Notes under the pieces: model-generated
Databases searched by the model: none
What the model saw: the letters and a program-made list of their open reading frames with translations, nothing else
Told to the model about the DNA's origin: nothing
In this document: one piece after another, positions 15,973 through 20,228 of the stretch
How positions within the stretch are numbered: position 1 is the stretch's first letter
How the letters are laid out: the number at the start of each line of letters is the position of its first letter
Made by a program: the position numbers and the translations under genes
Source: an uncultured Lachnospiraceae bacterium
GTDB taxonomy: Bacteria; Bacillota; Clostridia; Lachnospirales; Lachnospiraceae
Length of the DNA stretch: 41,970 nt
Direction: 5' to 3'
Assembly: GCA_947625775.1 (NCBI GenBank)
Contig: CANQPM010000026.1
Location: forward strand, 1-41,970

Positions 15973-18051
15973 TCAAAGCATAAGTTTCCCTTCTATCCCC
16001 TCGAAGTCAACTGTTTTCTCCCCGCCATTCTTCATTCTCACAGTCACCGCGCCGTACCCGCCACACTTTTCCTTATCAGTGTAAACAATTTCCTTAATCG
16101 GAAACAGCTCATCCTCCGAAAAGTCCGCAAGCTCCTCCTTCGTAATCACCTGTGAAATCAAAATGCTTTTCTCATAATGATTATGCGACATTCTTTTCGC
16201 CGAGGCATGCACCAACACTGATTTTTCAGAATCTGGATTTGTCCCTGTGCTGTGTATCACATCAAGCGACTCCCACCCATCATAAATCGTCATCGCAAGC
16301 TGCTTTTCCTTTCCAGTAAAATCATGCCCTTTCAATATAACCGCCGTCGCAGGCTGCGCGCCGTTTTCAGTCTTTCTGATAATCTCAGTCCCATTATCGG
16401 GAAACCCATACGCGCCCAGCGTAAGCTCCACCGGCTTCTTGAACAGCCGCATCCTGTCCACGCGCATTATACCATAAGGCACTGCAAAATCAGCAAGGTT
16501 AATCGCCTGTATCCAATGGCACTCCGTTTCCAGATTGTAGCCGAAAAACTGCCGCCTGTAAAGCACGCCGTCTTTTTCACCATGCCAGAAGGTTACATTA
16601 GCATTCTCAAAGGTTTCCGCCAAAATGTCATGAAGCACATACTGCTGCGATTCCACCCGAATATTTTCCTCGCTGTCCACAATCGGCGCCGCCTCCCACG
16701 GATATTTCGTGTTAAAGCAGAGCTTTGAATAATTCCACATACCATGGCGGTCATCCCTCTGCTTTACAACCTTTCCCGTGCGCAGGATCGTCTCGCCGTT
16801 TGCCTCATGATTAGAAAAGCACAGCGCAGGACCGTCAAGCGCCGTCACCTTTACCTCGTCTTTTACAAGCCCTTCCCATGTACCATTGTTCTCCCTCTGT
16901 GTCCAAAAAGGGTGATCCTTTGGCAAATGCAGGCACAAAAACGCCTTTCCAAGCCAAAACGGAGACTCCGCGCACGAATACCCCTGAACCAAAGGCATAA
17001 ACTGCCCGTAAAATCCAAGCGTCGGCACTCCCTCATACAAAAAGTCCTCCCGCTCCAAAAACTGCAAAAGCGAACCCGAACAGATACGGCGCGCCAGCCC
17101 CGCATCCACTACAGAATTTCTAAGCATCATATTACCGTCAAACGCGCTTGTCGCCGCATTCCTGTATATACAGCTCCTGCCCCACATATTTGTAAATCCA
17201 TCCCTGTCAAAAAAATCGGCATATGTAGCCATCAGCTCGTTAGAATTTTTTTCAAACTGCGCAGCAATATAAGGCTCCTCCTCATAACCATACCACAGAC
17301 ACCACAACGGCGCATACACATTAAACGCCCAGCATGAATAATAATCAAAGGAATGCCCGTCACGATACCACCCCTGCCCCGCATAATAATTCAAAATATG
17401 CGACGCATGCTCGCGCATAATACTCCTGTCAATCTCATAACCTTCCATATTCAAAAAGGCAAGGACTAGCATATTGAAAAGCCTCCAGTTCTGTGGCACA
17501 GTATTCCCCTCCGCATAATCCCTCAAAAAATCCGCAATACAATCCCTTTCCGCCTCGGTATATGTATCCCATATTTCCCCCTTGCACAGCCACAAACAAA
17601 TCACAAGCGCGCACGTTTCCACAGTCTGCTGAAAAGTCCTCGTCGGATCCTTTGATTTTTCGCCTTTAGCAATCTCCAGCAGCTCCTTATACGTGCCTGC
17701 GCAAAACGGATCATCTGCCGTACAGATACGCAGCACATGGCTCTTATAATAATCCCTGATTTTATACCCCTCTATCTCCAGTTCGGGATTTTCATGAATC
17801 AACGGCGCCGCAATGAAAAAAGAACGCGCAAGCCCCTCAAAATATTCCGCCTTTTTCTCCCCAACCGCGTCCGCGCTGTGCGGATACGTTATCTTCGTCT
17901 CCTTCCTTGGCATAACAACAGGATCCGAAAACTGCTTAATATTCTTAAATATCCCTCTCAGCAGATACTCCCCCGCCTCAATCCAACTCTCCCGCGTCAA
18001 CCCGGTATAAGGGCTCAATTCAAAATCCATATGTTGTGGTTTAAAAATCAT
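15973..18051 (-). CDS. DUF2264 family protein, candidate glycan hydrolase
   Basis: This cytoplasmic protein of 692 residues matches the DUF2264 family. The N-terminal half looks like an alpha-barrel domain (YTGLTRESWIEAGEYLLRG, NWRLFNMLVLAFL, YYAGQGWYRDGHSFDYYSCW, MWGRSCIYRNAA) and the C-terminal half looks beta-rich (CHWIQAINLADFAVPYGIMR). From memory, some members of this family are treated in CAZy as beta-glucuronidases; I cannot check that here. The location fits, as the gene lies at the end of an operon with a GH88 hydrolase and a heparinase-type lyase. Start 18051 is preferred because GGAGGAGAAATAGT precedes it; an upstream ATG at 18096 lacks such a site. A 407-bp structured spacer separates it from the lyase gene, so it may also have its own promoter. 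Confidence 0.8.
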   Translation of the reverse strand: MIFKPQHMDFELSPYTGLTRESWIEAGEYLLRGIFKNIKQFSDPVVMPRKETKITYPHSADAVGEKKAEYFEGLARSFFIAAPLIHENPELEIEGYKIRDYYKSHVLRICTADDPFCAGTYKELLEIAKGEKSKDPTRTFQQTVETCALVICLWLCKGEIWDTYTEAERDCIADFLRDYAEGNTVPQNWRLFNMLVLAFLNMEGYEIDRSIMREHASHILNYYAGQGWYRDGHSFDYYSCWAFNVYAPLWCLWYGYEEEPYIAAQFEKNSNELMATYADFFDRDGFTNMWGRSCIYRNAATSAFDGNMMLRNSVVDAGLARRICSGSLLQFLEREDFLYEGVPTLGFYGQFMPLVQGYSCAESPFWLGKAFLCLHLPKDHPFWTQRENNGTWEGLVKDEVKVTALDGPALCFSNHEANGETILRTGKVVKQRDDRHGMWNYSKLCFNTKYPWEAAPIVDSEENIRVESQQYVLHDILAETFENANVTFWHGEKDGVLYRRQFFGYNLETECHWIQAINLADFAVPYGIMRVDRMRLFKKPVELTLGAYGFPDNGTEIIRKTENGAQPATAVILKGHDFTGKEKQLAMTIYDGWESLDVIHSTGTNPDSEKSVLVHASAKRMSHNHYEKSILISQVITKEELADFSEDELFPIKEIVYTDKEKCGGYGAVTVRMKNGGEKTVDFEGIEGKLML

Positions 18052-18210
18052 ACTATTTCTCCTCCTATACATTTTTATTTCCAACCACTCATGCAACTCT
18101 ATTCAACAACACAGAGTTTGAATGAAATATAAACAAACGACATTTCGTAAATGTCCAATCATCAATTAAACAACCATAAATCCCTATTCAAATACAAATC
18201 CCTATTCAAA

Positions 18211-18312
18211 AACGTAGAATTTAGACAAAATATATAAAATCAGCGACGATTCGCATCGCGCACCAAGTCGCGATTTTATATATTTTGTCTAAATTCGACC
18301 GCATTAGAACAC
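18211..18312. repeat. Covarying palindromic element A (102 nt)
   Basis: The element starts AACGTA and ends GACCGCATTAGAACAC. Between these, 18217-18241 and 18272-18296 are perfectly complementary over 25 bp, and after one bulged A the stem continues for 5 bp (GCGAC with GTCGC). The tip holds a small hairpin GAT-TCGC-ATC and unpaired GCGCACCAA. It is the sister of element B: the flanks are nearly identical and the stem differs in compensatory fashion. It may be a structured RNA or a palindromic repeat. Confidence 0.75.
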
Positions 18313-18350
18313 ATACCGCAATCGCCATTCTTAACTCTATGTATTTAAAC

Positions 18351-18449
18351 AACGTAGAATTTGTGTGAAATATACAAAAACGCGGTGCCTTGCGGAGCAC
18401 CGCACCGCGTTTTTGTATATTTCGCACAAATTCGACCGGCTGAGAACAC
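18351..18449. repeat. Covarying palindromic element B (99 nt)
   Basis: The element starts AACGTA and ends GACCGGCTGAGAACAC. Bases 18357-18381 pair with 18409-18433 over 25 bp with one T-G position, which would be a U-G wobble in a plus-strand RNA and a C-A mismatch in a minus-strand RNA. The stem continues with GCGGTGC against GCACCGC. A tandem GCACC at 18397-18406 offers an alternative register for the tip. It begins 10 bp after the stop codon of the lyase gene. Confidence 0.75.
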
Positions 18450-18458
18450 CTCTATCAA

Positions 18459-20228
18459 TCACTCCCCTTCCTTACCCACAAACTCAAACACCATCTTACA
18501 CTCCAACTCCTGCTTTTCAAAAATCACACAATCCCACTGCAACAAATACACAGTCACCCTCCTGCCATCATGCAACGCATGCTCTTTCGGCACAATCCTC
18601 AAATTTTCAGCCTGCATCCACTCCTCATTCCCACCAACACGATACCATATCCTAACCCTACAAACTCCTCTTTCACCCCGTATTTCAATAGTACACAAGT
18701 CAAGCGCCACAGGCACATATGATGTCACAAAATTTTCCGTAACTGTCCTATTACCATCTAAAATAAGGAAACTGTCAACAACCTTCAGGCACAACCCTTC
18801 CGCAGCCTCCATATGTATCTTCCTCTCCAACCTGTCAATACATCCGACACGATACGCCCCCGCAAAAGAAACCGCAAGCTCTCCCTTTTCCTCATTCCAC
18901 TCAAACCCATCAGCACGGTACTGCTCCCCCGCACACTGCTCCTCCCCATCAATCAACGGCACAGAATGTCCCAACGACCGATTACACAAAATCTGATACC
19001 GCTTTTCTCCAAAATAATCCTTCGTATATTCCCCAGCCCCCAAATCAGCCAGCAACATCTCCCCCTTATAAACAAACAAAAAATTCCCCACATCATTATG
19101 ATTGTGGTTCTCATCATTATTTCCGCCCTTCGCCGCGAACCCGTTCCCCTCCGAATCCTTGCAAATCATCCACTGCGCCTTTTCCAGCAAATCACAGGCT
19201 CTAAAATCATCTCCCGCGCTCTCTCCCCCGCCATAAGCCAAAAGCCACCTGATATTCCTCTCATTTGGCAGCCACCGATAGCACGCATCATCATAAAACC
19301 CTCTCGCCGCCGCATAATCAGGCGTCTTAATCCCCGAAAAGCAATGTGAAAGATAAGCCGACAGCCCTGGCAGAAAACGCTCATCACAGCCAGAATCCGA
19401 AAAGCTCAGCGACACGCCGCCGCCAAAATAACATTTCCCCTGAAAGGCGGCGATTTTCCCGCACTTAGGATTGTCCATCAGATTGACGCGCCCGCCCGTC
19501 TCCTCATGTAAAAGCTCCGCAAACGCCGTATAGTAGCTCATTCCATACGAAAAATACCCCAGCCCCTCCGTACACGCGCCGTCGTCCTCCATGCCGCCAA
19601 GATAACATTCAAGCGCAGCGCACACGCGCCTCAGGCAAGGCTCCTTCCACCCCTCGGGAAGCGCGCCCATGCGGTCCATATAGATTGCCGCCATACCGAT
19701 AGAACCCGCGCATACAGCCGACCAGTTGCACCGATCTGTCTCCCACCAGCTGTAAGGCGGCTTGGAACTGCAGAACGGCACAAGCACCCTGTCCATAATC
19801 TCGCGCTTTGCAATCTCCACAATATCAGCAGGCAGCCTATCCCCCAATACCGCAAGCAGCTCCGCCAAAGTCTGCGCCGTTTCAGCCGCAAAAAGGTCAA
19901 TCGTTTTCTCGTCCAGCCTCTTAAAATCAACATGTGCAGGCAGCGCCCAAAAACGCTCCCTGCACACAGAGGCTATCACATCGCAGAGCTTATCCACGTC
20001 TTCTTTCTTCTTTCCATACTCCGAAAGAATACCGAACACAGTCAGATATTTTCTGCGCGCAAAATAAACATTTTCATAAATCAACCTGTTCCCAGTCTTT
20101 TCAAACAGGAAAAAATCCTCATCAGAAAGCAAAGGAAGCTCCTGCCCTCTCAAAAGCTCCCCCTCCTGCTCAAGCTCATTCCAAAACGCTTTAAGGTATT
20201 GTATCTCCCGCTCCTTTATCTGCGGCAT
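18459..20228 (-). CDS. Heparinase II/III family polysaccharide lyase
   Basis: This protein of 589 residues has the two-part layout of heparinase II/III-type lyases: an N-terminal alpha/alpha toroid (with NWSAVCAGSIG at 168-178 and GLGYFSYGMSYYTAF at 222-236) and a C-terminal beta-sandwich. The hallmark HNHND lies at 375-379, followed by GNFLFVYKGEMLLADLGAGE. Such lyases cleave uronic-acid-containing chains by beta-elimination and leave an unsaturated uronate, the substrate of the neighbouring GH88 enzyme. No signal peptide is seen, so it probably works on imported oligosaccharides, like exolytic family members. It lies 33 bp after the discoidin-like gene in the same operon. The CAZy family and the substrate (hyaluronan, chondroitin, heparosan, alginate) cannot be decided by eye. 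Confidence 0.85.
   Translation of the reverse strand: MPQIKEREIQYLKAFWNELEQEGELLRGQELPLLSDEDFFLFEKTGNRLIYENVYFARRKYLTVFGILSEYGKKKEDVDKLCDVIASVCRERFWALPAHVDFKRLDEKTIDLFAAETAQTLAELLAVLGDRLPADIVEIAKREIMDRVLVPFCSSKPPYSWWETDRCNWSAVCAGSIGMAAIYMDRMGALPEGWKEPCLRRVCAALECYLGGMEDDGACTEGLGYFSYGMSYYTAFAELLHEETGGRVNLMDNPKCGKIAAFQGKCYFGGGVSLSFSDSGCDERFLPGLSAYLSHCFSGIKTPDYAAARGFYDDACYRWLPNERNIRWLLAYGGGESAGDDFRACDLLEKAQWMICKDSEGNGFAAKGGNNDENHNHNDVGNFLFVYKGEMLLADLGAGEYTKDYFGEKRYQILCNRSLGHSVPLIDGEEQCAGEQYRADGFEWNEEKGELAVSFAGAYRVGCIDRLERKIHMEAAEGLCLKVVDSFLILDGNRTVTENFVTSYVPVALDLCTIEIRGERGVCRVRIWYRVGGNEEWMQAENLRIVPKEHALHDGRRVTVYLLQWDCVIFEKQELECKMVFEFVGKEGE

Follow-up and report, generated by a model that had tools for sequence, protein, structure and literature searches.

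Two neighbouring palindromes between a lyase gene and a DUF2264 gene

The window, that is the whole stretch of 41,970 nucleotides of Lachnospiraceae DNA analysed here, carries two neighbouring palindromes, A and B, between two genes of the minus strand. The upstream gene (18459 to 20228) encodes a heparinase II/III-like polysaccharide lyase (8r75_A, E 1.5e-36), for which no Pfam or NCBIfam family was matched. The downstream gene (15973 to 18096, given as the longest ORF, with the true start possibly further inside) is a DUF2264 gene (PF10022, E 2.9e-92). Both genes had been called correctly in the initial annotation, and its coordinates and sequence of A and B also proved right. The core of A lies at 18217 to 18296 of the plus strand, with the left arm at 18217 to 18240, the tip at 18241 to 18272 and the right arm at 18273 to 18296. 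The core of B follows at 18357 to 18433 of the same strand, consisting of the left arm (18357 to 18380), the tip (18381 to 18409) and the right arm (18410 to 18433). According to their stems, A belongs to an AT subfamily and B to a GC subfamily. On the plus strand, the folding z scores are -9.8 for A and -10.7 for B, on the minus strand -7.2 and -10.0, and none of the dinucleotide shuffles used for comparison folds as well.

The left arms of A (GAATTTAGACAAAATATATAAAAT) and B (GAATTTGTGTGAAATATACAAAAA) are mismatched at positions 7, 8, 9, 10, 11, 19 and 24, and, as originally described, six of these seven differences are compensated in the right arms (A-T/G-C, G-C/T-A, A-T/G-C, A-T/G-C, T-A/C-G and T-A/A-T). 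The single uncompensated difference is position 10, with C-G in A and T-G in B.

By comparison with full copies of the dispersed unit described below, the DNA around the cores can be assigned to decayed unit ends (all plus strand). The left flank of A (18188 to 18216, boundary approximate) is a remnant of the left end, for which the consensus by eye is TAGGCATTTGCGAAACTCTATTCRAYAACRTA. In the linker (18297 to 18356), what remains of the right end of A (consensus by eye GGACGGYTKAGAACACATTTCGCAATTACCTA) precedes the decayed left end of B. The right flank of B (18434 to 18470, boundary approximate) is a decayed right end and overlaps the 3' end of the lyase gene (stop at 18459, minus strand). 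A degenerate third left arm of direct-repeat family D1, the remnant of another copy whose right arm was not seen, is located at 18102 to 18139. Directly left of A, at 18171 to 18206, two 18-nt direct repeats occur (CAACCATAAATCCCTATT and CAAATACAAATCCCTATT). No target duplication is visible at A and B themselves, where the ends are decayed.

An orthologous doublet was found in the related genome G020. Its copy of A has C-G at position 9, where the window has A-T, and differs once more in the tip; for element B the left arms differ at three positions and the right arms at none. Left of core A, no homology to G020 is visible, so that a rearrangement breakpoint may lie there. For the window flank, the arm-blind flank search (see below) returned no ortholog from G017, the second closely related genome.

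Dispersed copies in one genus

Further copies were sought in the host genome and in other Lachnospiraceae genomes, and were found in both. A BLAST search of the host genome with the A/B pair returned 116 matching pieces, including many whole doublets. The arm pattern matched 91 times in the host (G000), 202 times in G017, 213 times in G020, 20 times in G027 and once, perhaps by chance, in G019. It was absent in 33 of the 38 genomes of the genus, and a backwards control gave no match. One palindrome can yield two matches, and the 91 host matches correspond to about 45 palindromes; the two sister species carry about 100 palindromes per genome. A search with the exact pattern returned 73 stretches, 72 of which belong to two MAGs of sister Lachnospiraceae from the rabbit gut (CANQHZ and CANQSB; G017 and G020), and the remaining one, with the right half only, to a third MAG (CANREB, apparently G027). 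In a set of 60 genomes, four were matched, the host included, all of one genus. A plasmid or phage origin was rejected, as there was no match and the exact pattern is absent from viral_contigs.

Reading of the host copies and the sister MAGs revealed that the conserved unit extends past the stems. A full copy is about 147 bp long with the ends TAGGC[A/G]TTTGCGAAAC...[A/G]TTTCGCAATTACCTA, which form imperfect terminal inverted repeats (TAGGCATTTGCGAAAC on the left versus TAGGTAATTGCGAAA[T/C]). The units are non-coding and range from 54 to 263 bp, with size classes of 54-55, 61, 142-148 and 170-176 bp. Of the 67 end-defined elements below 1 kb, 16 are flanked by perfect target duplications with a length of 9 bp or more (9-12 bp), 13 of them distinct, like ATTATGTATCA, TCTAAACATTTA, CTATTGGAGTT or TTAAATTTCAA; the shuffle control gave a mean of 0.4 and a maximum of 2. 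The other 51 elements have no perfect duplication of this length. Two cases of long end-to-end distance (L046 and L050), considered as a possible autonomous element, turned out to be separate copies joined by the regular expression.

None of the copies lies within an ORF of at least 700 bases (145 of 150 copies, shorter ORFs not counted; the five on short loci were left out). Among 82 classified locus groups, 63 are located between co-directional genes, 42 of them antisense and 21 sense to both neighbours, an antisense excess with p 0.011 on rough ORF calls. At two loci of G020 (L085 and L107), a different palindromic mini-element (TAGTGTACTGTACCG..., about 108 bp) is nested in the unit, at a TA either next to the stem or within the tip.

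An IS1182-like insertion sequence with matching ends

An IS1182-like insertion sequence (IS) of about 1.77 kb was identified in sister genomes, with ends that match those of the dispersed unit at 15-16 of 16 positions and target duplications of 11-13 bp. Two copies could be read from end to end, one in G029 (1771 bp), which contains the sole full frame (491 aa) among the copies, and one in G002 (1765 bp) with an open frame of 405 aa. In both, the left end is TAGGCGTTTGCGAAAC and the right end GTTTCGCAATTACCTA, with the same asymmetry as in the small unit. Compared with the consensus of the small unit, each end has at most one deviation in 16 positions, and these deviations equal variants found among the small copies. 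The G010 copies, a longer one that is stop-interrupted, one with a deletion and a fragment, have the same ends or one change. In G027, reached via the transposase search, only a right end was found, next to a DDE transposase at the edge of a contig. Target duplications of the IS are ATCTATTTTGA (G002) and GGAATCTGTTAAA (G010). The transposase scores above the cut-off of DDE_Tnp_1 (PF01609). With the 395-aa truncated protein as query, the IS1182 model (NF033551) remained below its cut-off (51.6 versus 270 bits), and the element is therefore named IS1182-like only.

Because of the matching ends and the 11-13 bp duplications, this IS is the likely mobiliser of the small unit. Searches of G017 and G020 did not turn up the exact partner IS, and the ends of the host relative diverge, so that the mobilisation itself is an inference. 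This relative (50% amino-acid identity) is split between the end of one host contig (L190) and the start of another (L191); it has a matching 11-bp duplication (TAACACATTTT), and its ends differ from those of the small unit at 2-4 of 16 positions. In G017 and G020, which carry most copies, the partner transposase gave no match at E 1e-20, so that the copies there may be stranded. An origin of the subterminal DNA from the IS was rejected, as the similarity is not convincing by shuffle tests (p 0.02-0.08 for three right ends, 0.49 for the right end in G002 and 0.15-0.44 for left ends). The hairpin core has no visible counterpart in the IS ends.

Taken at this point, the initial suggestion of a palindromic mobile repeat is borne out by the target duplications, the partner IS with matching ends and the dispersed intergenic copies. 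We are highly confident that A and B are adjacent copies, in the same orientation, of a non-autonomous mini-transposon (MITE).

Doublets, hairpin loss and core replacement

Reading of the host copies yielded 16 doublets, all head-to-tail in the same orientation with a spacing of 119-155 nt, about one unit length. Ten are of the type AT-then-GC, like the window, five GC-then-AT and one GC-GC. Between their outermost stem edges, the two host doublets L012 and L013 do not differ at all, but their outer flanks are different, for which reason doublets seem to be copied as one unit. Upstream of the L013 doublet, units of the form CACAACGTCAA...TTTCATTT make up a short tandem array that reaches the left stem edge.

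Units of 54-65 bp without the hairpin make up 21 of the 67 elements below 1 kb and show at least four different junctions (L121 and L122 left out), which by eye lie at short direct repeats of the full unit (TTTAG, TAG, TTCGA and TTTGAC). Most 61-bp copies share one common junction, and this form may therefore have moved on its own. There are 61-bp copies with perfect target duplications, and the hairpin was possibly lost after insertion. Loss in place was observed at the L023 locus, where the unit is complete in G000 and G017 but only 61 bp long in G020, and a second time between L139 and L152.

Other orthologous loci differ in the core itself. The L018 doublet is collapsed to a single hybrid core in G017, and swaps between AT and GC cores occurred at the L013, L018 and L075 loci and also between L025 and L206. 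At L206 (G017, about position 1361, minus strand) both flanks are of the left type, as would result if one of them were copied over to the other side of the palindrome. Tips are modular as well: L027, L030 and L032 carry a hairpin module of the GGGGCTGTCGCA type, other tips read TGTACTGTATC...GATACAGTACA, and the modules vary between orthologous loci. An intramolecular inversion of the tip was considered and rejected; it was flagged in one of 150 copies (L158, taken for a wrong-strand reading), with 13 unclassified.

These observations allow a mechanism to be outlined. The IS1182-like transposase would have moved the MITE by recognizing its ends, with the stem of 23-25 bp and the tip as cargo. 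After insertion, the palindrome is a hot spot for deletion between short direct repeats, fusion of doublets and replacement of core or tip, as seen at orthologous loci. Template switching within the hairpin and conversion from sister copies probably keep the arms complementary, and some selection for a terminator-like hairpin may contribute. A tentative extension of this proposal, which we consider possible, is that the palindrome is an exchangeable cassette: the MITE ends drift at fixed loci, while other copies repeatedly supply new cores, probably via cleavage of the hairpin and recombination.

Change of the arms at orthologous loci

For comparison of orthologous loci, 46 reciprocal pairs with sufficient flank were kept from 68 raw pairs. 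Over these pairs the left arms differ by 3.7% and the right arms by 3.2%. In the bases alongside, substitutions amount to 12-15%, and non-coding DNA at a distance of over 80 nt differs by 3.5-10.7%. Identical arms were found in 23 of the 46 pairs versus 3-11% of random pairs, in a set that is ascertained, as many G017 and G020 loci were fetched by the exact right-arm pattern. For the same reason, a first estimate that the arms evolve ten times slower was dropped. An arm-blind set was obtained by a flank search of 13 loci, which returned no orthologous stretch for L015, and gave an arm change of 32/505 (6.3%) over 11 pairs, with two swap pairs (17/96) left out. At orthologous loci, the palindrome has either diverged less than the non-coding DNA around it or been exchanged as a whole. 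Selection on the arms is possible, because slow arms and the excess of identical arms are not easily given by neutral conversion alone.

Such selection could act on exapted bidirectional intrinsic terminators or mRNA-stability hairpins, where the MITE palindrome would be kept locus by locus. The slow arms, at 3.7% and 3.2% in the ascertained and 6.3% in the arm-blind set versus about 15% beside the core, are consistent with this, as are the position of all examined copies outside long ORFs and four sites of a GC stem with a T-tract in 651 bases on both strands, where 0.3 are expected (pattern matches only). However, most locus groups (63 of 82), like the window, lie between co-directional genes, where a strong terminator could silence the downstream gene. 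In addition, the unit or its hairpin is missing in at least one sister at six of the 13 arm-blind loci: the sister stretches returned for L017, L022, L028 and L030 show no unit, and at L019 and L023 one sister is without the hairpin. This does not fit a strongly needed element, and judging from sequence patterns we regard maintenance as terminators or stability hairpins as rather unlikely. The earlier option of an intercistronic mRNA element is conceivable as a secondary role only, with twice as many locus groups antisense to both neighbours as sense to both (42 and 21).

Covariation of the stems

The covariation was analyzed in 154 extracted copies, orthologs included, a set that is incomplete as the pairing by regular expression misses some doublet partners. 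Among 3542 stem cells, 3380 are Watson-Crick, 35 G-T, 18 A-C and 109 other. The variation clusters at positions 7-11 and 19. At eight of 23 pairs (3, 7, 8, 9, 10, 11, 17 and 19) at least two Watson-Crick types occur, at position 17 owing to one C-G copy. The GC and AT subfamilies differ at positions 7, 11 and 19 in 32-35 copies. From the comparison of cores at orthologous sites, four rows with tips starting with CGCG were left out, three of them taken for opposite-strand readings and the fourth being element B of the window, which was re-read separately. Five of the 46 ortholog pairs differ at five to seven stem pairs, and many pairs differ in the tip. The five represent the three swap loci (L013 counted twice) and the pair L094/L158, which is probably an indel misread by the ungapped comparison. 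Beyond the swap pairs, double compensatory changes were found at four orthologous loci (L014, L016, L053 and the window locus).

Stems with several Watson-Crick types, two compensated subfamilies, double compensatory changes at four loci and slowly changing arms are what a structured RNA family, acting in cis or in trans and spread as a repeat, would display if its stems covaried by selection for an RNA hairpin. Such an undescribed RNA had been the first option of the initial annotation, and we now regard it as improbable. Position 9 is Watson-Crick in only 55% of the copies, and its commonest state is a G.A mismatch (51 of 154), with both repaired states also common. The counts of G-T and A-C pairs (35 and 18, or 22 and 16 without position 10) do not point clearly to one RNA strand, and the plus-strand RNA deduced earlier from the T-G pair of B is thus not upheld. 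Moreover, tips are swapped for other hairpin modules at many orthologous loci, and at L014 and L016 the tips differ too (by 5 and 14-15 edits), which fits core replacement. The comparison with Rfam gave no family at gathering in the window and 16 sub-threshold hits, and a known Rfam RNA was rejected accordingly. Of the former claim that pairing is kept, the compensatory differences themselves are real; they do not prove an RNA, as template switching and core exchange also yield them.

That the palindromes are of the REP type and moved by a RAYT tyrosine transposase is very improbable and was rejected: GTAG forms the left foot of both A and B (where the stem begins with the last G of the tag) and of 27 of 36 host copies, and paired palindromes are common among REPs too (PMC3733652), but the stem is 23-25 bp long compared with the 5-13 bp given there for GTAG REPs, no more than 20 of 60 copies in G017 and 15 of 54 in G020 have GTAG as the foot, with ATAG or other feet occurring, the Y1 transposase was not found in G020 or G027, is broken in G000 and contains a stop in G017, and no such palindrome occurs in the loci fetched around Y1 transposase genes.

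Relation to known elements and significance

Like IS-derived bacterial MITEs, the family is short, non-coding and intergenic, with imperfect terminal inverted repeats, target duplications and a partner IS matching at 15-16 of 16 end positions. It differs from them by the long internal quasi-palindrome, the two compensated subfamilies, modular tips, frequent head-to-tail doublets and core exchange at fixed loci. GTAG/CGTC REPs with their RAYTs, as described in PMC3733652, are likewise intergenic palindromes with paired copies and possible RNA hairpins, whereas the MITE has a much longer stem and an end-defined unit of 147 bp with inverted repeats and target duplications, and no association with a RAYT was found. 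The GC clusters of yeast mitochondria are likewise mobile and palindromic and are reported to fuse, reshuffle and exchange (PMC4478555), but differ in genome, size and composition. Template switching at quasi-palindromes (PMC8604942, PMC7202029, PMC3820800) homogenizes the arms of inverted repeats and thereby mimics covariation. It is a mutational mechanism and not an element, and spacer inversion is a named product; a convincing inverted tip was not found in our copies.

A MITE with an internal palindrome is a known kind of element. This family appears to be new, and a description was not found in the literature searched. What sets it apart is the exchange of cores and its imitation of RNA covariation. 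It provides a clear case of compensatory stem changes, which are usually taken to prove RNA structure, in a mobile DNA palindrome. If the palindrome is indeed an exchangeable cassette, concerted evolution would imitate RNA covariation without any RNA function, and covariation-based discovery of RNAs could be misled in general. With its many orthologous loci, the family is a natural data set for telling selection on RNA apart from template switching and gene conversion.
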